The translations under genes were made by a program, and so were the position numbers. A stretch of DNA of 64,000 bases, taken from Candidatus Neomarinimicrobiota bacterium (GTDB taxonomy: Bacteria > Fidelibacterota > SORT01). The stretch spans positions 1-64,000 of the forward strand of contig JACZTG010000009.1 of NCBI GenBank assembly GCA_022573815.1. Direction: 5' to 3'. The notes beneath the pieces are model-generated. The model saw only the letters and a list, made by a program, of their open reading frames with translations. It made no database searches and was not told the origin of the DNA. Positions 46,636 through 64,000 of this stretch are shown piece after piece. Each line of letters opens with the position of its first letter. The first letter of the stretch is position 1.

Positions 46636-47940
46636 TTGAACATTAGAACTAAAGACACTCTGTTCGGTGATCTGGAAAAAGTAAGAAGTGAGACTCTTGA
46701 GTTAGTGGAGCAAATACCCGAGAGTTTTCTCTTTAACCCGCCAAAACCGTTTATGGGCCCAATCATCTGGGACCTGGCGCATATTGCCAAATTTGAAGAA
46801 ATATGGATATTGAAAAATGCCGCAGGCTTGGATGAAAAAAGTATTCTGCCAGATGATGATTACAACGCCATAAAAACTCCGAGAAAGATCAGAGAAGAGC
46901 TGACACTGCCATCGTTTACAGAATCTCTGGAGTATATGTCTTATACCAGAAAAAAAGTATTCGATTTTCTTGACAGCGCGACGCTTGACGGTGATGATAG
47001 ATTGCTCAAGAATGGCTATGTCTTCGACTTGGCGATTCAGCACGAATATCAGCATCAGGAGACTATCTTGCAATCGCTTGCGCTGTTCGATTCGCCGCCT
47101 TTTGAATGTCCCAAGCCTAAGCCACAGAACGAAACAGCATTGGTAGAAAGAATGCTGTTGATTCCGGCGGGTGATTTCGTTTTGGGGACGGATAATCCTC
47201 ATTTCGCTTACGATAATGAACTTCCGGCTCATGAAACTTATTTAGATGAATTTCTTATGGATTCCACGCCCGTAACGAACGAACGGTATCTGAATTTTAT
47301 TGAAAGCGACGGTTACAACCGGGAGGAATTCTGGTCGGAGAAAGGTATGAAATGGAAATCTGAAGAGAATGCCGAATCTCCATTATACTGGTATATGGAA
47401 AACGGGACATGGTTCAGGAGAGTATTCGATAAAGTAATGAAAATTCCCCCGAGGGAACCTGTAATTCACGTGTCCTACTTCGAAGCTGAAGCGTTTGCCA
47501 ATTTCGAGGGGAAGAGACTTCCCACAGAACAGGAGTGGGAAAAAGCCTGCTGTTGGAATCCGGATTCCGGCGAAACATATTCTTACCCCTGGGGAGAAGA
47601 GGAGCCTGACAACGATAAAGCAAATATCGGTAAAGAAAGATGGTGTCCTGCTCCCGTAGGCAGCTATGAAAATTCAACCTCTCCGTCAGGATGTCATCAA
47701 ATGTTAGGCGATGTGTACGAATGGACGTCATCTTCGTTTCTTCCTTACGATGGATTTGAAGCATTTCCGTATGAAGAGTATTCGGCAGTTAATTTTGGAG
47801 AAGAATATAAGGTACTCAGGGGAGCGTCATGGGCTACTTCGACAAAAGTGGCAAGAGCATCATTCAGAAATTGGGATTATCCCCAGCGGAGGCAGCTGTT
47901 TTCAGGATTCAGATGCGCTATGGATTCGGATAAAACTTGA
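46636..47940 (+). CDS. egtB: Ergothioneine sulfoxide synthase (EgtB)
   Basis: This 434-aa non-haem iron enzyme joins hercynine with gamma-glutamylcysteine or cysteine and oxygen to form the sulfoxide. The N-terminal DinB-like domain carries the likely iron ligands His49 (DLAHIAKFEE), His136 and His140 (HEYQHQET). The C-terminal half is a formylglycine-generating-enzyme-like domain (EAFANFEGKRLPTEQEWEKA, then LGDVYEWTSS and SGFRCAMD). Glutathione versus cysteine donors cannot be told directly, but the adjacent EgtC favours the gamma-glutamylcysteine route. The start is TTG at 46636. Confidence 0.93.
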   Translation: MNIRTKDTLFGDLEKVRSETLELVEQIPESFLFNPPKPFMGPIIWDLAHIAKFEEIWILKNAAGLDEKSILPDDDYNAIKTPRKIREELTLPSFTESLEYMSYTRKKVFDFLDSATLDGDDRLLKNGYVFDLAIQHEYQHQETILQSLALFDSPPFECPKPKPQNETALVERMLLIPAGDFVLGTDNPHFAYDNELPAHETYLDEFLMDSTPVTNERYLNFIESDGYNREEFWSEKGMKWKSEENAESPLYWYMENGTWFRRVFDKVMKIPPREPVIHVSYFEAEAFANFEGKRLPTEQEWEKACCWNPDSGETYSYPWGEEEPDNDKANIGKERWCPAPVGSYENSTSPSGCHQMLGDVYEWTSSSFLPYDGFEAFPYEEYSAVNFGEEYKVLRGASWATSTKVARASFRNWDYPQRRQLFSGFRCAMDSDKT

Positions 47941-47941
47941 T

Positions 47942-48739
47942 ATGTGCAGAATAGCGGCATATATGGGAGAAGAAATAAAGTTAGAGGATTTAGTGCTGAA
48001 ATTTCCTCATAACCTAATTGTTCAAAGTTATGCCTCCAAAGAGCTGCTATCGGGTAACGTGAATCTTGATGGGTTCGGATGCGGCTGGTATAATCGAAAG
48101 GTAGAGAGCAATCCCGCACAATACGCAACTTTATTGCCTTTGTGGTCAGATAATCGTTTTCCCACTATCGCAAAAGCGGTAACCTCAAGTGTCATTATTG
48201 CCGCCGTCAGAAATGCAACGCCGCCATTTCCAAATGAACTATCCGCCGTTCAACCGTATGCTTCCGGAAAGTATATGTTTGTTCACAACGGGTTTATCAA
48301 AGTTTATGATAAGTTCAGACGAAAGATGGAAAACGACCTTCCTGAGGATTACTTCAACAGGATACCGAATAGAACGGACAGCGCAATTATATTCTCTGTT
48401 TTTATGTGGAAATTATCAGATGTTCAAGAAAGTGAGTCACCGGTACGGGAGGCATTATTAAAAACGCTTGAATGGCTAAAGGATTATAGTTCTGATTCTG
48501 ATTTTACTTCAAATCTGAACATTGGAATTTCCGATGGAGAAAATCTTACGTTTATTCGTCACGAAATAAAAGGTGCGTGTAATTCGTTATATTATAATTC
48601 GTCGCATAAAAATTTCCCAAATGGGGTTTTTATCGCGTCTGAGGCGCTTGACGACGATACCGGCTGGAAAACGGTCCCCGAAAACAGTATGATTGAAATT
48701 ATACTTGGAGAAGAACCAAAATTGAGTGATTTGAAATGA
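47942..48739 (+). CDS. egtC: Ergothioneine biosynthesis glutamine-amidotransferase-like hydrolase (EgtC)
   Basis: With the ATG at 47942 this is 265 aa and begins Met-Cys (MCRIAAYMG), placing the nucleophilic Cys2 at the N-terminus of an Ntn hydrolase after Met removal. GFGCGWYN and a VRNATPP-like segment followed by PYASGKYMFVHNG are class II amidotransferase motifs. EgtC removes the gamma-glutamyl group from the EgtB product. A longer frame from 47711 runs through egtB and would bury the Cys, so it is rejected. The stop overlaps egtD by four bases. Confidence 0.93.
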   Translation: MCRIAAYMGEEIKLEDLVLKFPHNLIVQSYASKELLSGNVNLDGFGCGWYNRKVESNPAQYATLLPLWSDNRFPTIAKAVTSSVIIAAVRNATPPFPNELSAVQPYASGKYMFVHNGFIKVYDKFRRKMENDLPEDYFNRIPNRTDSAIIFSVFMWKLSDVQESESPVREALLKTLEWLKDYSSDSDFTSNLNIGISDGENLTFIRHEIKGACNSLYYNSSHKNFPNGVFIASEALDDDTGWKTVPENSMIEIILGEEPKLSDLK

Positions 48740-49719
48740 GTCTATCTGTTAACTTAATAGAACGTTTAGTTGTTTCAGACCCGTTTGACGATATGTGGAG
48801 AGAGGTCAAGAACGGTCTCACCTCAATCCCGAAGATGCTGAATCCGAAATATTTTTACGATGAAAGAGGCTCGCAACTCTTTGACGATATTACAAGGCTG
48901 CCTGAGTATTATCCTACAAGGACAGAGACAGCAATACTTCGCTCTGAATCTGAAAATCTCATAGAGAAGTATCGTCCCGAAGCGCTATTCGAGCTTGGGA
49001 GCGGCTCTGCTACCAAAACACAAATATTGCTCGATGAGATGGAGAGGAAAGGGTTATTAAAGGGGATAGGCTTATTTGATATAAACGAAGAATTTCTTGG
49101 TCAAAGCGCGACCGGATTTCAAGAGAAGTATCCGCAGTCAACGGTTCGAGGTTACGTAGGTGATTTCACTAAGGAATTCAGATTTGAGGGATTAGGTTTT
49201 TTCCCCACTCTCTATATTTTTCTGGGTTCTACAATAGGAAATATGAGTCAGATAGAAAGCGAAAAATTCCTCGGCAGAGTTGCGGATAAAATGGGTGATG
49301 ACGACCTGTTTTTACTTGGTGTGGATTTGATAAAAGACGAAAATATATTGCACGCCGCATATAATGACTCGCAAGCTGTTACCGCTGAGTTTAACAAAAA
49401 TATACTATCGGTCATTAATAAAAAATTAAACGGTGATTTTAATCCAAACCTGTTTGAGCATGAAGCTATATACAATTCGGATGAGGGAAGAATCGAGATG
49501 TATCTTGTGTCATTGGTGGAGCAAGAAATAAATCTTCAGGGAATTGACCTGAAAGTGAATCTGTCAACAGGCGAAAAAATCTGTACCGAGATCAGTAGAA
49601 AATACACCCGTGAAAAAGTTGAGTCACTGCTTAATTCCGCCGGGATGGAGATAGCGGAATGGCTGACGGATGAAAAATCCTTTTTCGCTGTCGCGCTTGC
49701 CCGGCTTGGTTCTGCTTGA
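48736..49719 (+). CDS. egtD: L-histidine N-alpha-methyltransferase (EgtD)
   Basis: This 327-aa SAM-dependent enzyme trimethylates histidine to hercynine, the first ergothioneine step. NPKYFYDERGSQLFDDIT and LPEYYPTRTE are the family's N-terminal signature. FELGSGSATKTQILL is the SAM-binding loop, and FLGSTIGNM follows. The start ATGA overlaps the egtC stop. No egtE-type lyase is in this cluster, so the last step must be encoded elsewhere or occur otherwise. It converges on dapD with a 13-base gap. Confidence 0.95.
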   Translation: MSLSVNLIERLVVSDPFDDMWREVKNGLTSIPKMLNPKYFYDERGSQLFDDITRLPEYYPTRTETAILRSESENLIEKYRPEALFELGSGSATKTQILLDEMERKGLLKGIGLFDINEEFLGQSATGFQEKYPQSTVRGYVGDFTKEFRFEGLGFFPTLYIFLGSTIGNMSQIESEKFLGRVADKMGDDDLFLLGVDLIKDENILHAAYNDSQAVTAEFNKNILSVINKKLNGDFNPNLFEHEAIYNSDEGRIEMYLVSLVEQEINLQGIDLKVNLSTGEKICTEISRKYTREKVESLLNSAGMEIAEWLTDEKSFFAVALARLGSA

Positions 49720-56382: not shown

Positions 56383-56410
56383 TGACAAACGTAATAAAAT
56401 CGTTATATTG
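56383..56410 (+). promoter_or_regulatory. Promoter for the CHRD-domain gene
   Basis: TTGACA (56383-56388), a 16-base spacer and TATATT (56405-56410) precede a leader of about 125 bases. The position also argues against a start at 56408 and for the ATG at 56543. Confidence 0.72.
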
Positions 56411-56542
56411 GTTTGTAGCAGTTCAATTTACCAAATCAGAAAGGATTCGCCTAATAGGGATAAACTGTTACTGTTCTTATCCATATTTTTATTTTTTAAC
56501 ATTACTAAATTAGTCATCAATAACCAACAAAAGGATATCAGT

Positions 56543-58402
56543 ATGAATAAAACGTTACTAAGCTTTATAATAATTACTCTCTTATCAGTGCCGAATCTCT
56601 CGGCTCAGAAAGAAGATCGAATTGGTAGCGCATTCCTGTCGGGGGGTAATATCGTACCCACTCCTATAGTTTCTTCAGGTACAGGAACGCTCACAGGAGT
56701 GCTGATGAACGATTGGACAGAGTTTCATTATGCTATTACAATCGACGGATTAACTCCTACTGTAGCGCATTTCCACAACGGCGCATTCGATGCGACAGGT
56801 GGGGTTGTGAAAACACTGGATTTCAGCGGTGGAATGACCATATCGGGCGTTTGGTCGTCATCTGATGGAGACCAACCGTTCACTACTGCAATGTTGGATG
56901 AGCTTTTAGCAGGCAGGATTTATGTTAATATTCACACAACAGAAAATCCGGGAGGGGAAATTCGTGGAAATATTCAAGTACCGGTATTTTTTAAGGTATT
57001 ATTAAGCGGCGATAAAATTGTTCCTACGTCTATTACTTCATCCGGTGTGGGTACAGGTGCCGTTATACTATTCGGCAATGATAGAGAATTAGATTTTGGC
57101 TTAAATGTTACGGGTTTGACGCCGACTAACTCTCATTTTCACGGAGGAAGCGCTACTGATAATGGAGGAGTGGTCAAAAACATCACTTTAGTTGATGACG
57201 CCGCAGACGGTGAGTGGTTGGGCGGTGATGCAGAACAACCTTTGACTGATGATTTAATCAGTGACTTGCTTCTCGGAAATGTTTATATGAATATTCATAC
57301 AGCTGCTTACGGCGGAGGCGAAATAAGGGGCCAGCTGGAACGCGAAGATGGCACTGCGTTCGCGGCGTTTATCAGCGGCGACAATATTGCCCCCACACCA
57401 ATTTCGTCCCTCGGTTCAGGTATAGCGGTTCTAACGCTCAATTCGGCACAAACAGCAGTAGAATATGACATCACAATCTCAAGTATAACTCAAAGCGTAG
57501 CTCATTTCCATAATGCGGGCGCGGGGTTAAACGGAGGAGTTGTAAAAACTCTTACATTCGTTGATGGTCACGCCAGCGGCGTCTGGTCCTCTACAGATGC
57601 TTCACAGCCGTTAACTTCCGAGCTTGTCGAAGAGCTGCTCAGCGGAAGATTGTATGTTAACATACATACGACCCTATACTCGGGAGGTGAGATTCGTGGA
57701 CAGGTTTTTGTAGTTTCGGGTTATAACGCCCAACTTGACGGTAGCCAGACAGTAGCCGACCCCGCCGTTGTTTCTTCGGGAACAGGCACTTTGACAAGTT
57801 TGTTTTTCTACTCAGATGTAGGCGGTGAGCTTGAATACAATATTACCGTTAATGGGTTAACTATAAGTGCCTCGCACTTCCACGCCGGAGCCGCAGGAGA
57901 AACCGGTGGTGTTATTAAGGCTATCACATTTGACGGGAACTCCGCTTCCGGAATATGGAGCGCAATCGATGAGGTCGATCCGCTCACCGATGATATTGTC
58001 GATATGATAAGGAGCGGAGGGGTATATGTTAACATACATACGTCTGCAAACCCGGCAGGCGAGATACGGGGTCAGCTGTTACCGAATCTGCTGCAAATTC
58101 CCGTAAGCGTGATAGATGAACGAGTGCTGCAACTGCCAAATTCTATTGAGCTGAAGCAGAACTATCCGAATCCATTTAATCCGACGACTCTTATTGAGTA
58201 TGACCTGCCGAATGACGGCCGGATTCTACTTACAATTCATAATCTACTTGGAGAAGAAGTAGCGCGTCTTGTTGATAAAGAGCAAAATGCGGGTTTACAT
58301 AAAATATCATGGGATGCGTCCGCAATGTCCTCCGGAATTTACTTCTATAATCTTCAAGCAGGAAAACTTAGCCGGACGAAGAAGATGTTATTACTCAAGT
58401 AA
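56543..58402 (+). CDS. Secreted protein with four CHRD domains and a C-terminal sorting domain
   Basis: The ATG at 56543 with AAAGGATA upstream gives 619 aa with a clean signal peptide (1-21, ending NLSAQ). A longer frame from 56408 overlaps the promoter and is rejected. Four CHRD (chordin-type) repeats cover about 28-142, 150-263, 272-387 and 394-511. Each has an HFH motif (at 76, 198, 321 and 445), a GGVVK-type strand and a Y-[VM]-N-I-H-T-x(5)-G-E-I-R-G end. The sorting domain begins at QNYPNPFNPTTLI (539-551) and ends KKMLLLK. CHRD domains are beta-sandwiches of unclear function in bacteria; the conserved His could bind metal. Confidence 0.9.
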   Translation: MNKTLLSFIIITLLSVPNLSAQKEDRIGSAFLSGGNIVPTPIVSSGTGTLTGVLMNDWTEFHYAITIDGLTPTVAHFHNGAFDATGGVVKTLDFSGGMTISGVWSSSDGDQPFTTAMLDELLAGRIYVNIHTTENPGGEIRGNIQVPVFFKVLLSGDKIVPTSITSSGVGTGAVILFGNDRELDFGLNVTGLTPTNSHFHGGSATDNGGVVKNITLVDDAADGEWLGGDAEQPLTDDLISDLLLGNVYMNIHTAAYGGGEIRGQLEREDGTAFAAFISGDNIAPTPISSLGSGIAVLTLNSAQTAVEYDITISSITQSVAHFHNAGAGLNGGVVKTLTFVDGHASGVWSSTDASQPLTSELVEELLSGRLYVNIHTTLYSGGEIRGQVFVVSGYNAQLDGSQTVADPAVVSSGTGTLTSLFFYSDVGGELEYNITVNGLTISASHFHAGAAGETGGVIKAITFDGNSASGIWSAIDEVDPLTDDIVDMIRSGGVYVNIHTSANPAGEIRGQLLPNLLQIPVSVIDERVLQLPNSIELKQNYPNPFNPTTLIEYDLPNDGRILLTIHNLLGEEVARLVDKEQNAGLHKISWDASAMSSGIYFYNLQAGKLSRTKKMLLLK

Positions 58403-58426: not shown

Positions 58427-60559
58427 TCATTTTAGTTCATTAGATTCAAGCGACTCCAACTGAACGAGCATATTGAATAAGTGCTCGTTCGTAGGAGCGC
58501 GCTCAATTCCTATTTCAAGCACTTCAATTGCCTTTTCTTTATTTCCAGCCAGCGAATACGCAAGGGAGAGAGGTGCGTAAATATTATGTTTATCAGGCTC
58601 AAGGGTTAAAACCTGTTCATAAACAGCTATAGCCGTTTGAACTTCATCGGTTTTCATATAAGCCGCCGCTAAGTTGGACAAAGCTATACTATCGGTGGGT
58701 TTGACTTCGATAGCCTTTTTATATGCTGCGATAGCGTTCCCATATTCACCGCGGGCGGAATACGTGCTACCCATAAAATCCGCGCCGATAGACCATCTGT
58801 TTTGAACAGCTGCTGAGTTGTCTCCAAGCAATTCGATTTTGTCAGATAAATATTTTCTTATCCCGGGTTGATTTCCGGCGGACAGATGAATTGCCATAAG
58901 AGAAAGCGCTTTTATGTCGAGGTCGTCGCTTTCAGCCATTTTTTTCAATCTCTTAATTATATCATTATGGATATCCGGCATATCCGGTTCGAGCCTCTCT
59001 TTTATAAAAGTCAGAAGACCTGTAGCATCCGCCATAGTATGTGTAAGAGAATCAGGAAGGAGGAGAGACGCCGCTTTCCTGATATCATATGCGTTTTGTG
59101 CGTCCATGAGCGCTTTGACGGAATTATGGTGTGGTTTAATCTCTCCATACCATTCGGTAGTCTTCTTTTGAAGCCAATCCACGGTTTTATCCGAGTGGCA
59201 TTTTGAGCAGGCGTTTTCAATACCGATACTCGCATCAAATCCCGGACGTGGGATCGGGATAGTATGGTCAGATCGCGCGAACTTCAGCTGCGAACCAAGT
59301 CCTTGATGCTGCAGAAACGGCATATGGCAGGAGGTGCAAAGGTTACCGGGAGAATCGGGCAAATGATTGGAATGAGACTCCGGTGATGCGGCTTTACTCG
59401 GATGACAATCGAGACATTGTCCGTTATCAAATTTTCCGTTTAGAGCGTTACCGTAAATATCCCTGTAATCCTGTGAGTGGGGTTCGTGACAATCTACACA
59501 TGTCATTGAGCCGCTAAGGTAGCAGCTGCTGAAAAGATGGTTTTGCTGATAGGCAAATGCTCTTACTCGTCCGTCCGCCAAGTACGGAGAGCTCCCTAAA
59601 ATTGCCATCTTCATAGAATAATAACGCTCAAGATCTGCGCCCGGAAGATGCCCGTTTATAACCTCGTCCTTCACAGCATGACATTGAAAGCATAACTGAA
59701 GGGATTCGTCTTTATTTTGGATAGACAAAGCTTCAAATCCAATATCTTCTGACTTGTAAACATCGCCTGAATTCACAATATCAATATGTTTTCTGCCGGG
59801 ACCGTGACATGATTCACAGTTGATATCCAATCCTTGAAAAGTTGTTTCGTATATCTTTTCATCCTTCTTATACTCGACCTGCAGCTGACTGCCGTGACAA
59901 TTCTGGCAATTGGAATAATCAGTGTTGCTGCCGAGAATCCTGTATGGAGGCCAATGAGACAAGTCATTAAGAGAGATACTGCCGCTAATCGGCTCCCAAT
60001 TGTTGCTCTCTCTTAACTGAACAAACCAGATGTTTTCCTGCTTTATAAAATCGAATGGAAGCATCCTTAGCGTTCCGTCGGGGAATTTCGTGAAATAACT
60101 TTGCGTGCCGCCGCCTTCCAAATGACCACCTCCCACAACAGCGCCAACCGTGAGAATAACTCGATTGCCGACTTCAGGTTGCACGGTGAATATGAATTCA
60201 TCATTTTCTGTTATAGATGGAATTACGACAGCATCTTTAAAGATGAGCGGCTTTTCATCAAATTTGCCGATTATGATCTCCTTACTCGGAAGTCCACCGG
60301 CTTTTGCGTGAGTTGAACTTTTCCACAGATCGTAAATCTCTTTATGGCAAGCTTCGCACGCTTCTGACCCTCTGAAATCTTTTATAGAAGGCTGAGCAGC
60401 CGAATCTTCAAAATGCTCAGATGGAAACGGAAGGATGAAGGTCAGTCCTAACGTATCTTTATAAAAATCGTCTTTGCTGTAATTATAAATAAGAAAAGCT
60501 GAAGTCAGCAAAGTTAGCGCAATGAAGATTGATATTAGTTTTTTCCCGGATTTATTCAT
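58427..60559 (-). CDS. Octahaem cytochrome c with C-terminal TPR repeats
   Basis: This 710-aa protein has an N-terminal membrane anchor or signal (9-25). Eight CxxCH haem sites lie at 68, 218, 248, 290, 354, 382, 408 and 451. About 120 residues of beta-rich sequence sit between haems 1 and 2. A helical linker precedes three TPR-like repeats (about 590-700, with YGNAIAAYKKAIEVKPTDSIALSNLAAAYMK). This is a periplasmic or outer-surface electron carrier or reductase. The arrangement resembles NapC/NrfA-related multihaem TPR proteins, but the substrate is unknown. It overlaps the pentahaem gene by eight bases, so the two are coupled. Confidence 0.9.
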   Translation of the reverse strand: MNKSGKKLISIFIALTLLTSAFLIYNYSKDDFYKDTLGLTFILPFPSEHFEDSAAQPSIKDFRGSEACEACHKEIYDLWKSSTHAKAGGLPSKEIIIGKFDEKPLIFKDAVVIPSITENDEFIFTVQPEVGNRVILTVGAVVGGGHLEGGGTQSYFTKFPDGTLRMLPFDFIKQENIWFVQLRESNNWEPISGSISLNDLSHWPPYRILGSNTDYSNCQNCHGSQLQVEYKKDEKIYETTFQGLDINCESCHGPGRKHIDIVNSGDVYKSEDIGFEALSIQNKDESLQLCFQCHAVKDEVINGHLPGADLERYYSMKMAILGSSPYLADGRVRAFAYQQNHLFSSCYLSGSMTCVDCHEPHSQDYRDIYGNALNGKFDNGQCLDCHPSKAASPESHSNHLPDSPGNLCTSCHMPFLQHQGLGSQLKFARSDHTIPIPRPGFDASIGIENACSKCHSDKTVDWLQKKTTEWYGEIKPHHNSVKALMDAQNAYDIRKAASLLLPDSLTHTMADATGLLTFIKERLEPDMPDIHNDIIKRLKKMAESDDLDIKALSLMAIHLSAGNQPGIRKYLSDKIELLGDNSAAVQNRWSIGADFMGSTYSARGEYGNAIAAYKKAIEVKPTDSIALSNLAAAYMKTDEVQTAIAVYEQVLTLEPDKHNIYAPLSLAYSLAGNKEKAIEVLEIGIERAPTNEHLFNMLVQLESLESNELK

Positions 60560-62261
60560 TTATATATCCGGATTGATTATCGAGCGACCAAGCGGGCCCT
60601 TCGCATTGGCAAAGTTTTCTAATATGCGATACCAAATTCTCTATTTCACTGCGACTGAGCGTATGCCCGAACGCGGGCATAAAATTACTTTTATCCAGAA
60701 TATATCCTCCTGCAAAAATTCCATCGAATAAGACATCGTCAGGACGCTTGGAAAGATATTCACTGTCTTTATGACTTCTTGGGGCGGTTGGTAAATACTT
60801 AGCATTGAATCCCTTCCCGTCGCCGTCAATTCCATGGCAGGATGAACACTGTTTGAGATAAAGCGAATTATCCCCTTTCATCCTATTGGGCGTGAGAACC
60901 GGATTATCTACAAGAGAAAGATATTTCGATTCAACCTTTGAACCGTTCAATTGAAGAAGATAGCTGCTGATAAGCTCTAATGTCTGTACAGGCATAACAG
61001 TCTTTGGCATAATAATATTGGGATCAGCAGCATGAGGATTTTTGATCAGATCGAATACAAACGAAGGCTTAAGCCTTGATTTAACGTTAGAAAGATCAGG
61101 TCCGATTCTTCCTCCGTCAGCTCCAATACGATGGCAGCCTAAACAAGGTAATTTCGCGTCCAATAAACCTCTCGCTTTCTTCATCGCAAACGGAGAGAGT
61201 TTGGCGGGTCTGAACAGTTCGGACTCTATTAGTTTCTTTTCATTTTTGATTAGATATTCCGTCAGTACAGTTACTTCTTCGGGTGTAAGGTGATAGTCCG
61301 GCATTCGGCTGCCGCTTCCCGGTAGATAACCGAAAGGTCTGAGGGCATATGGGTTAGAAAGATAATCTTGCAGCCAGTTTTGTAACACTCGTGAGCCTTC
61401 AAAAGAAAGTTTTGGAGCCATTGAGTCTTTCCACGGCTCTGTTGACGAATGTCTGTGGCATGTGGCGCAATTCAAAGCGGTAAAGATTTTTTCTCCATCG
61501 GCAACAATGACATCAGGGTAAGATTTTTTAGCGTTGTTGTATTTTTCCTCAAGTTCAGCTTTTCTTCTGGTATTCTTTTTATAGAGCTGGTCGGTTACCC
61601 GATTTATTAGCTCCGGAGCCTGAGATAATGCCTCGGAATATTGCCTGCCGTCGTCTGAAATATCATAAAAAAAAGAGGGCATAGGCGTGTCAGCGCCGTC
61701 AAACAGAGCTGGGGAAACGAAATACATTTTAACCCAATTCTTTTTGAGTCGATAACCCACAGTGGAAAGATCACTCCCTCTTTCTTTGCCCTTCACGCCG
61801 GGAGAATGACATTTCACGCATTCAAACGCTTCAAACAATTCTTCCTTGATGTTGATAGGGGTGCTATAATCAGGATGGCTTTCAGAATGCAGCCATGAAG
61901 GAAAATTCGGATACTCATTTGAATACGTATTTTGAGTTTCGAGGAAAAGCGCGAGAGCAAACGCTTCTTTTTCACTCAGGTGAAAATCCGGCATCCGCGA
62001 GTAACCGATGTTATGCCTGACCTTTTCCGGGTTTTGCAGATATTCAAGCAAATATGCCGAATTATATTTCAGACCTGCGAAACTCAAATCAGGAATCTTT
62101 TCTCGAATAAAACTCTCTGTCTTCAGGTCGGTGTGACAACCCGAGCAGGAGAGTTCTCTGATAAGCAGCTCGGCGGAGGGGATACCTTCAGCCAGACTTG
62201 CCGCAACCCAAAAGAATAGAAGCGAGAAACATAACAGGGGAAATACAAATATCCTTCTCAT
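60552..62261 (-). CDS. Pentahaem cytochrome c
   Basis: This 569-aa protein has a signal peptide (1-25, ending SLAEG). Five class I-type cytochrome c domains have CxxCH at 39, 148, 265, 373 and 472. Each is followed by a candidate Met ligand (RMPDFH at 89, MPSFF at 194, RMPDYH at 319, MPK at 418 and NFMPAFG at 527). The last domain (CSSCHGIDGDGKG) looks like an ordinary soluble cytochrome c. It probably passes electrons one haem to the next and on to the downstream octahaem protein. It lies 22 bases after the M24 lipoprotein gene in one operon. Confidence 0.9.
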   Translation of the reverse strand: MRRIFVFPLLCFSLLFFWVAASLAEGIPSAELLIRELSCSGCHTDLKTESFIREKIPDLSFAGLKYNSAYLLEYLQNPEKVRHNIGYSRMPDFHLSEKEAFALALFLETQNTYSNEYPNFPSWLHSESHPDYSTPINIKEELFEAFECVKCHSPGVKGKERGSDLSTVGYRLKKNWVKMYFVSPALFDGADTPMPSFFYDISDDGRQYSEALSQAPELINRVTDQLYKKNTRRKAELEEKYNNAKKSYPDVIVADGEKIFTALNCATCHRHSSTEPWKDSMAPKLSFEGSRVLQNWLQDYLSNPYALRPFGYLPGSGSRMPDYHLTPEEVTVLTEYLIKNEKKLIESELFRPAKLSPFAMKKARGLLDAKLPCLGCHRIGADGGRIGPDLSNVKSRLKPSFVFDLIKNPHAADPNIIMPKTVMPVQTLELISSYLLQLNGSKVESKYLSLVDNPVLTPNRMKGDNSLYLKQCSSCHGIDGDGKGFNAKYLPTAPRSHKDSEYLSKRPDDVLFDGIFAGGYILDKSNFMPAFGHTLSRSEIENLVSHIRKLCQCEGPAWSLDNQSGYINE

Positions 62262-62283: not shown

Positions 62284-63645
62284 TTACCTTGATGAAATTA
62301 ATATCAAATCTTCCTGTGGTGGAATAAGATAATTGGCTCCGGTTTCTGTTATATAAGCCATCTCTTCAACGGATATTGTTTTTGTGTCGCCATTGCCATT
62401 TTCAAGAGGCCAGCTGAAGAAACCGTCGAACGCAAACGTCTGTCCGGGAATGAGCGGTCTCAGCGCATCACCGGTCGGCGGATTATCACTCTGCGCGCCT
62501 CCTAAACGCGGACCCACGTCATGAGTCCAATATCCCACAGGATGTCCGGTGCTCCAGATAATCGGAAGCGAGCCCGCTTCTTTCATCCACTCTCTTTGCG
62601 CTTTATCGACTGAATATCCTGAATTGCCGGGTATCATTGCCGCAAGCGCGATACGGCTCCCTTTTCGGGCGTTCTCCCACTTCTCAAGCGCTTCTGCCGG
62701 AGGTTCGGTCATTCCCGGCGCAAGAACGTAAGCGAACCGCTGAATGTCCGTGCACCATGTACCGTAAACCTTTATACCGAAATCCGTCTGTATAAAATCT
62801 CCAGCTACAATTACTTTTTCCGTAGCGTGAGAATGTCCCCTGTCAACGCCGGAATTCACGTTAGGATTTTGTTCCGGCGCCCACGCGTCTTCCACGCCTA
62901 ATTCTCTCATCCGCTTCTTTAGGAATTTTCCCACATCAGAATCTTTTGTTACGCCGGGAACGACCATTGCATACGCCTCGATTTCAAGAGCGGCTGTAAT
63001 CTCCGCTGCTTTTCGCATAATCTCTATTTCGGCGGGAAGTTTTACCGACAGCCATTCGGTAACGAGGTTTTGTGACGATACGAGCCGCTGCATCAGTACG
63101 AATCCCAGGGCATTTTCGAGTTTAATACGCTGGGTATATGACAAGCCGTCTGCGATGTTCCGTTCTGACGAATTTATGGCGATTACTCTCGGATTTACCC
63201 TGCTCAGCTCCTCGGCGACAAGGTTGAATACGCTGCCCCCTCTCTCAAATTGCACGACCTCGTCGTGAATACCGACATCCCGAAGAGATTTTGCCTCTCC
63301 TTCAGGCGAAAAAGCGAGCGACCGAACGTTGTTTCCTTCCAGGAAGAACAGAAAAGCGGCGGTGCCTCCGGCGTTTTCGCAGCCTACATGAGCCGCTAGG
63401 GGGTCATTGTCATTTTCCCTGCAAATAATAACCCATGCGTCAACTTCCGCTCGCTGCATCGCTGCGGGAAGCAGTTTCGCGATTCGCTCGAGTCTTATTT
63501 CGGGCCACGGATTATCAGCAGGGTCGAAGGGAAGCGCATCGGTTTTCTGCTGAAAACTGTCGCACGCCGTGAAAGAAAATATTATGAGTAGCAGCGTAGC
63601 GCTAAAGAATAACTTAAAGAATAAACCGCCGGTAGATTCTGTCAT
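62284..63645 (-). CDS. M24-family metallopeptidase-like lipoprotein (Xaa-Pro peptidase type)
   Basis: This protein of 453 aa starts at the ATG at 63645, supported by GAGGGA; an upstream TTG at 63651 is too close to that site. The N-terminus is hydrophobic and ends FSFTAC, a lipobox. The pita-bread domain starts near residue 205. Numbered from the TTG, the metal ligands are Asp290 (QTDFG), Asp302 (CTDIQR), His370 (STGHPVG) and Glu429/430 (SVEEMAYI). The position normally held by Glu in EPG reads FDG (Asp409). Activity is therefore likely but altered specificity or loss is possible. It heads an operon with two multihaem cytochromes. Confidence 0.85.
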   Translation of the reverse strand: MTESTGGLFFKLFFSATLLLIIFSFTACDSFQQKTDALPFDPADNPWPEIRLERIAKLLPAAMQRAEVDAWVIICRENDNDPLAAHVGCENAGGTAAFLFFLEGNNVRSLAFSPEGEAKSLRDVGIHDEVVQFERGGSVFNLVAEELSRVNPRVIAINSSERNIADGLSYTQRIKLENALGFVLMQRLVSSQNLVTEWLSVKLPAEIEIMRKAAEITAALEIEAYAMVVPGVTKDSDVGKFLKKRMRELGVEDAWAPEQNPNVNSGVDRGHSHATEKVIVAGDFIQTDFGIKVYGTWCTDIQRFAYVLAPGMTEPPAEALEKWENARKGSRIALAAMIPGNSGYSVDKAQREWMKEAGSLPIIWSTGHPVGYWTHDVGPRLGGAQSDNPPTGDALRPLIPGQTFAFDGFFSWPLENGNGDTKTISVEEMAYITETGANYLIPPQEDLILISSR

Positions 63646-63747
63646 TTCCAATCCCTCGATTAATAAGTATATAATAGGTACAACTTTAAGTAAATATAAC
63701 TACCTGATGAGAAAAAACGAATGATATAATTGCGAAGAAATTTTAGG

Positions 63748-64000
63748 TCATTCGTAATGAGTCCACATCCTGATAATTTTAACCGTTTTAATTTTGTCCA
63801 ATACTTGATAGACTAATCTGTGCTGTATATTTATTCTTCTCGAATATGCGCCGGATAGGTCGCCAAGTAATTTCTCGAATGGGGGATGAAGTGTAAAGGG
63901 ATCGTTTTTAAGAAGGGTTAATAGATTGACTACTTTGGATTTTAACTTAGATGATTCAATTTTTTTCGAGTCTTTGATTGCTTGTTTTGTGTAAACAATC
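63748..64000 (-). CDS. yoeB: Txe/YoeB-family mRNA interferase toxin (start cut off by the window edge)
   Basis: The frame runs from the window end down to TGA at 63748-63750 and encodes 83 residues ending GDLSGAYSRRINIQHRLVYQV, then IIRMWTHYE. This is nearly the full YoeB length (84-85 aa), missing about two N-terminal residues. The RRINIQHR segment and the final His-Tyr (MWTHYE) are the catalytic signature of this ribosome-dependent RNase. The antitoxin (YefM/Phd type) is normally upstream and would lie past base 64000. No antitoxin gene follows inside the window. Confidence 0.9.
   Translation of the reverse strand, partial: IVYTKQAIKDSKKIESSKLKSKVVNLLTLLKNDPFTLHPPFEKLLGDLSGAYSRRINIQHRLVYQVLDKIKTVKIIRMWTHYE

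Follow-up and report, generated by a model that had tools for sequence, protein, structure and literature searches.

A conserved pair of an OcwA/MccA-like octahaem cytochrome and a polyhaem class I cytochrome in Candidatus Neomarinimicrobiota and other phyla

Background

Key reactions in the nitrogen and sulfur cycles are carried out by octahaem cytochromes, and through OcwA this group is connected with extracellular respiration. Here we analysed two adjacent genes, one for an octahaem cytochrome with a tetratricopeptide repeat (TPR) tail and one for a pentahaem cytochrome, within a 64,000-nucleotide stretch –hereafter, the window– of a Candidatus Neomarinimicrobiota genome (assembly GCA_022573815.1, contig JACZTG010000009.1, positions 1 to 64,000). 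We lean, if only slightly, towards reading the pair as a two-subunit periplasmic redox enzyme, with an OcwA/MccA-type octahaem protein that has one haem predicted to be open and whose link to the cytochrome c pool would be the partner.

OcwA of Thermincola potens (PDB 6I5B) is a nonahaem terminal reductase of the cell surface, and it oxidises and also reduces hydroxylamine (PMC6703420). In the available sections of that paper, OcwA haems 1-4 align with cytochrome c554, haem 2 is an active site in OcwA, c554 and MccA, MccA corresponds to OcwA haems 1-4 plus 6-9, and the beta domain of OcwA is common only to MccA within the NrfA family. As for paired systems, the HAO-like octahaem protein Kustc0458 of Kuenenia has a dihaem redox partner, Kustc0457, according to the available parts of PMC6423088 and PMC11897245. 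For Calditrichota, the octahaem enzymes named in the accessible portion of PMC5317091 are epsilon-Hao and Otr only. No description of an octahaem plus pentahaem pair was found in the titles and abstract openings of the papers listed by searches of the open-licence PMC literature.

Results

The initial annotation, made from the letters of the window, had described two neighbouring genes with eight and five CxxCH motifs and an eight-base overlap, and the open reading frames (ORFs) agree with it on each count:

58427-60559, minus strand: octahaem cytochrome with beta insert and TPR tail, 710 amino acids
60552-62261, minus strand: pentahaem partner with five class I haem domains, 569 amino acids
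60552-60559, minus strand: eight-base overlap of partner stop and octahaem start

Together, the two ORFs hold 13 in-frame CxxCH motifs within 3.8 kb. Chance is ruled out as their source, since a reversed control pattern gave 115 matches in the 2,392,111 bases of the genome (both strands), or about 0.2 expected per 3.8 kb.

At the locus level, we followed the pair through several sets of relatives. A protein search of 61 genomes found the octahaem protein at E < 1e-100 in three of them (G000, G031, and G047), and the partner at that level in the same three. Scanning genome contigs with a four-sequence alignment gave 71 loci, where L108 and L109 match the TPR region only and L107 is remote. Then, 78 loci were scanned with profiles of the octahaem core and the partner C-terminal core. 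The 76 octahaem segments included four remote ones (L037, L038, the second of L056, and L107), five at a contig edge (< 900 upstream bases), and 67 that could be scored. A partner was encoded on the same strand and at most 1.5 kb upstream in 49 of these 67, which are not independent rows and include the window (L032) and possible near relatives among the loci with G handles. The partners were of five-haem (21), four-haem (10), three-haem (1), two-haem (15), and one-haem (1, a broken gene) types, and the last one was fused.

The fused case, L057 (labelled as a Deltaproteobacteria metagenome-assembled genome), is a single ORF, open at the contig start, with 10 CxxCH motifs. It runs from the last partner domains –two CxxCH and the Cys-x-Cys tail– through an Ala/Pro-rich linker to the full octahaem core, an arrangement that is good evidence that the two proteins act together.

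Both genes also occur in the same genomes. Among 245 genomes of the window's phylum (cut-offs of E < 1e-100 for the octahaem protein and E < 1e-60 for the partner core), the octahaem gene was present in 23, the partner in 21, and both in 19, with 2.0 expected (Fisher p 1.8e-22, uncorrected for kinship); they were adjacent in 14 of the 19. Only the octahaem gene was found in G122, G125, G126, and G127, and only the partner in G136 and G137. The count sets aside G134 (an octahaem fragment), the weaker octahaem proteins of the f5 family and G106, and the weaker G106 partner. Thus, from the suggestion of a new electron-transfer module, the conserved two-cytochrome pair holds by adjacency and co-occurrence, but the octahaem half has known kin. 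As a separate observation, in G031 an octahaem gene and a five-haem partner lie on different contigs (C5 and C38; L035 and L036), neither beside the other.

A tree built from 73 haem domains united the 69 close rows with support 98/97 and grouped the window with L035 and L048 (98/92). In it, G031, a genome of the window's phylum, lay beside a Marinimicrobia genome, from which the window is probably of Fidelibacterota. The row labels, which come from record titles and may be wrong in some cases, were Fidelibacterota, Calditrichota, KSB1, Bacteroidota, Gemmatimonadota, Ignavibacteriota, Verrucomicrobiota, Myxococcota, Deferribacterota, and Pseudomonadota. A 13-row Fidelibacterota clade without upstream partner adjoins PorV-like and TonB-type genes, and several of its members have a lipobox; this lipoprotein branch could be at the outer membrane. 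Fidelibacterota octahaem genes without upstream partner were seen at L034, L035, L048, L059-L061, L063, L066, L072, L080, L095, L098, and L103, most of them near PorV-like, large T9SS-like (type IX secretion system), and TonB-type genes; many encode lipoproteins and most lack the TPR tail. No neighbour was seen to recur across phyla: after the merged cytochrome cluster (74 loci), the next one, at 14 loci, was the T9SS-like protein found in the Fidelibacterota-type region. Viral contigs gave 52 pattern matches, none of them a relative.

The octahaem protein has the following features:

60452-60547, minus strand: N-terminal helix, residues 5-36, likely membrane anchor (AlphaFold2 secondary structure and N-terminal sequences)
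60344-60358, minus strand: haem 1, CEACH, residue 68
59990-60247, minus strand: beta-sheet insert, residues 105-190, between haems 1 and 2 (AlphaFold2 model)
59894-59908, minus strand: haem 2, CQNCH, residue 218, predicted open and catalytic (ligand count and alignment to OcwA, c554, and MccA)
59804-59818, minus strand: haem 3, CESCH, residue 248
59678-59692, minus strand: haem 4, CFQCH, residue 290
59522-59575, minus strand: segment of residues 329-346 (DGRVRAFAYQQNHLFSSC), aligned with low confidence to the distal His-His of OcwA haem 2
59486-59500, minus strand: haem 5, CVDCH, residue 354
59402-59416, minus strand: haem 6, CLDCH, residue 382
59324-59338, minus strand: haem 7, CTSCH (CTSCHMP), residue 408
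59195-59209, minus strand: haem 8, CSKCH, residue 451
58451-58774, minus strand: TPR tail, residues 596-703 (Pfam, model, and structure matches)

Its AlphaFold2 model, built from a 49-sequence alignment (predicted local distance difference test, pLDDT, 88.1; predicted template modelling score, pTM, 0.88), has strands at residues 105-190, where a beta-rich insert had been proposed, and a transmembrane-like helix at residues 5-36. The N-terminus looks uncleaved and has no lipobox. The best structural match was OcwA 6i5b, which came top with Foldseek (E 1.6e-8) and aligned to residues 60-474 with VIA-align (Z 19.5, root-mean-square deviation 3.2, 332 residues, 23% identity). This alignment stops at residue 474, with helices and the TPR beyond, and the remaining structure matches listed fall mainly on the TPR tail. 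When 49 haem domains were used as a profile against PDB sequences, OcwA (1.5e-16), MccA (7.2e-6), an NrfA-like protein (2.7e-5), and c554 (8.4e-5) ranked first.

The octahaem half belongs to the OcwA/MccA/NrfA superfamily, and the definition of no named member fits it. It has in common with OcwA the haem-domain fold over residues 60-474, the beta domain, and the ligand motifs S-x-H, CHGPG-x-x-H, and CHMP...H. However, it has eight haems instead of nine, apparently a TPR tail in place of the three-helix bundle, and another distal segment, and its type occurs in Gram-negative-type phyla with a polyhaem class I partner. With MccA (PDB 4RKM) it shares eight haems and a beta domain, but all its sites are CxxCH and none is the CX15CH haem site that defines MccA in the available part of PMC7096707. 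Moreover, it has only one conserved non-haem Cys, C346. The copper site at haem 2 of MccA reportedly has two Cys.

The profile matches to c554 and NrfA bring it close to the c554/NrfA/HAO group. Unlike NrfA, with five haems, it has eight CxxCH motifs, and no CxxCK, the catalytic haem site of most NrfA proteins, was present in any octahaem segment scanned. The NrfA profile gave two matches in the genome, neither over the cut-off and one of them the octahaem gene itself. The decahaem DmsE/MtrA profile scored 42.1 bits against a curated cut-off of 192.2, for a protein with eight haems and not ten. HAO, characterised by a tyrosine-crosslinked catalytic haem, was not represented among the 29 PDB sequences matched by the profile, a result that falls short of excluding kinship. 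The Kustc0458/Kustc0457 pair is similar in combining an octahaem core with a class I polyhaem partner, but its octahaem half is annotated as HAO-like, not OcwA-like. Altogether, the octahaem half has known kin, by its OcwA/MccA fold and by membership in a wide, uncharacterised TPR-octahaem family.

Regarding the haem set, the printed profile alignments pair haems 1-3 with OcwA and c554 sites, and haems 5-7 with the consecutive MccA sites CATCH, CTDCH, and CASCH. Since MccA equals OcwA haems 1-4 plus 6-9, these alignments suggest, in our judgement, an MccA-like haem set that misses OcwA haem 5. The HMMER alignment to OcwA places haem 5 opposite OcwA haem 5; we preferred to match it to OcwA haem 6 because they have CHxxH in common, which is also a matter of judgement.

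All eight proximal His were invariant in the 49 aligned relatives. Seven further His were conserved: 84, 258, 361, 396, and 432 in all 49, 399 in 48, and 341 in 46. With eight proximal but only seven further His, one haem should have no distal His, and it would be haem 2 if the OcwA/c554/MccA pattern holds. OcwA has two open haems (2 and 5); here, the His count expects a single unligated haem and the OcwA haem 5 site appears absent. Around residues 329-346 conservation is high, with F335, Y337, and C346 invariant (49/49). Since alphaproteobacterial cousins have Glu at 335 and Lys at 346, F335 and C346 are, from the sequences, marks of this branch and not of the whole family. We also considered an inter-subunit metal or disulfide site between C346 and the partner Cys-x-Cys and dropped it, since C346 is also invariant in proteins without upstream partner.

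The pentahaem partner has the following features:

62190-62261, minus strand: signal peptide, residues ~1-24 (sequence and helix 8-23)
62133-62147, minus strand: haem 1, CSGCH, residue 39
61806-61820, minus strand: haem 2, CVKCH, residue 148
61455-61469, minus strand: haem 3, CATCH, residue 265
60582-61193, minus strand: conserved two-haem core, residues 357-560 (CLGCH and CSSCH; haem residues 373 and 472)
60603-60611, minus strand: invariant Cys-x-Cys tail, residues 551-553 (30/30 relatives)

Five Cytochrom_C stretches in Pfam, and a downstream Met-Pro at all five haems, bear out its description as a chain of five class I domains, each with CxxCH and an axial Met. Among aligned relatives with the respective domain, this Met was kept in 24/24, 19/19, 22/24, 30/30, and 30/30. 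What stays constant across the 30 aligned partners is the two-haem unit at the C-terminus, in which a Cys-x-Cys close to the end is invariant; the front domains are present in some partners and absent in others. The model (30 sequences; pLDDT 85.9, pTM 0.87) gave no Foldseek match with E < 0.001 over the whole protein; only single domains match. Residues 463-554, in the last domain, resemble small Kuenenia cytochromes, the dihaem partner 6h5l_B (Z 12.1), and the cytochrome c subunit of ACIII, and a likeness to SoxX was seen for residues 342-440. Against the curated SoxX profile, domain 4 reached 72.3 bits (cut-off 61) and the L052 partner 40.5. Despite this passing score, we rejected SoxX as the identity of the partner, which has five haem domains versus the single-domain subunit of SoxAX.

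TPR repeats are protein-binding modules. In the octahaem protein Pfam finds them from residue 596, as anticipated, but the long tail is not constant across the family. The residues after haem 8 number mainly ~180, 248, or 312-330, in steps of ~68, which equal two 34-residue TPRs; proteins truncated at a contig end, and those with < 7 CxxCH, were excluded, and the broken L097 (48) was set aside. At least 248 residues follow haem 8 in all 39 intact octahaem proteins whose upstream partner is a separate gene (255 in the window), and the fused L057 has 180. In the partnerless Fidelibacterota clade, 11 of 13 could be measured and all had 180-188. From this pattern, where clade structure leaves few independent events, we infer that the TPR tail helps hold the partner.

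Discussion

The computed fold kinship, gene pairing, co-occurrence, and natural fusion are the basis of the two-subunit enzyme that we favour; the opening of haem 2, the TPR docking, the direction of electron flow, and the substrate class are inferred. The octahaem protein would be the substrate side, tethered to the membrane by its N-terminus. Seven bis-His haems would serve as a wire, and haem 2, without distal His, would bind a small molecule, for which a nitrogen or sulfur oxide is the likeliest candidate. The reduction of a nitrogen or sulfur compound was among the first suggestions for this locus, and kinship with OcwA, MccA, NrfA, and c554 favours it. The partner would be the wire to the respiratory chain: its constant two-haem unit may dock on the octahaem protein with help from the TPR tail, while its reach to the cytochrome c pool would be extended by 0, 2, or 3 additional His/Met haem domains.

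Several observations weigh against this enzyme. An upstream partner is missing for 18 of the 67 octahaem genes, of which 8 nevertheless encode tails of 202-340 residues. Position 341 is Gln in 3 of the 49 close relatives, and Ser or Trp in distant cousins that keep eight haems; either this residue might not act as a ligand or a second open haem might exist, and the Ser in alphaproteobacterial cousins makes the haem 1 ligand uncertain. No conserved neighbour gene indicates a substrate. Among the described relatives, OcwA reduces nitrite at only 1 per minute (PMC6703420, in part), and a nitrite reductase role for Kustc0458 is favoured by PMC6423088 and disputed by PMC11897245, in the available text of both.

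A pure electron conduit without catalysis –across the periplasm, or to a mineral, an electrode, or a partner cell– seems to us rather unlikely, with real points in its favour. The closest relative of known structure, OcwA, works at the cell surface as a terminal reductase of iron oxides and electrodes, and the 13-row Fidelibacterota clade, linked to PorV-like/TonB genes and with lipoboxes in several members, would fit the outer membrane. However, conservation around residues 329-346 exceeds the needs of a wire, and the protein of the window has an anchor helix and no lipobox. No MtrB/PioB match was found in the genome, in a weak search whose control was positive in only 1 of 14 genomes and below the cut-off. 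For this locus, the extracellular acceptor suggested in the initial annotation thus loses weight. The electrons could also flow the other way, with the octahaem protein oxidising a reduced nitrogen or sulfur compound and the high-potential class I haems of the partner carrying electrons to a haem-copper oxidase. The His/Met class I haems of the partner, its ACIII-like last domain and SoxX-like fourth domain, the two COX1-type oxidases of the genome, and the action of OcwA on hydroxylamine in both directions speak for it. We consider it unlikely, as no substrate gene is linked and class I cytochromes also feed reductases and peroxidases. A redox sensor or assembly factor, with the TPR tail holding other envelope proteins, is very improbable: the tail belongs to a protein-binding type and grows in ~68-residue steps, but a whole clade and the fused protein lack it and retain eight haems. 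That the two genes are neighbours by chance hardly deserves credit; only the 18 of 67 loci without upstream partner speak for it, and conserved adjacency, co-occurrence, and fusion go against it.

A more specific proposal, which we hold doubtful, is a new multihaem complex of several phyla, with a pocket at the active haem (marked by the invariant Phe335, Tyr337, and Cys346) unlike those of OcwA, MccA, NrfA, or HAO, docked by a TPR arm to a class I chain whose length would be tuned by gain or loss of haem domains; in the fusion, the arm would be lost. Its substrate would be a nitrogen or sulfur compound without an assigned enzyme in those phyla. Should the two-subunit enzyme be right, it would be an unassigned redox enzyme in uncultured groups that are widespread, namely Fidelibacterota (Marinimicrobia), Gemmatimonadota, KSB1, Calditrichota, and Bacteroidota. 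Through the fusion and the pattern of TPR lengths, docking of the partner can be put to a direct test.

The wider TPR-octahaem family reaches culturable bacteria. In a plasmid collection, the octahaem domain matched 147 records, mostly of Rhizobium and Sinorhizobium, with up to 28% identity over 97%, and the partner had no match there. Four plasmid cousins carry eight CxxCH and retain six of the seven further conserved His, but Glu, Ser, and Lys replace F335, H341, and C346. Family members in Rhizobium, Sinorhizobium, Roseibium, and others are annotated as 'tetratricopeptide repeat protein', 'cytochrome c3 family protein', or 'multiheme c-type cytochrome'. Through one cousin, on pSymA of S. 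meliloti 1021 (L120, 8743-11151), the wider family could be approached in the laboratory. In Rhizobium and Roseibium records (L119 and L122), the octahaem gene lies downstream of genes for an arylsulfatase and a HAD hydrolase on the same strand, possibly a sulfur-linked cassette in culturable bacteria.

As for the respiratory setting, besides the two COX1-type oxidases, reading the genome by eye revealed a Rieske and cytochrome b locus with multihaem proteins. L115 (G000:C20) is a run of genes for an unusual multihaem complex of bc type: a Rieske protein, a cytochrome b to which nine CxxCH are fused, and a protein with 11 CxxCH.

Finally, a gap of 22 bases separates the partner from the end of an M24-type peptidase gene (62284-63651, minus strand), which lies upstream and shares its strand. 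Relatives of this peptidase appear at 8 other loci among the 78 scanned, each time on the strand opposite to the cytochrome genes, so we did not count it in the module. Convergent with the octahaem gene, 56408-58402 (plus strand) encodes four CHRD domains and a type IX secretion sorting domain. What resembles a YefM/YoeB-type antitoxin-toxin pair lies at 63748-64000 (minus strand) and just beyond (L032 3749-4320), and the genes at 46636-49719 (plus strand) resemble egtB and egtD of ergothioneine synthesis.

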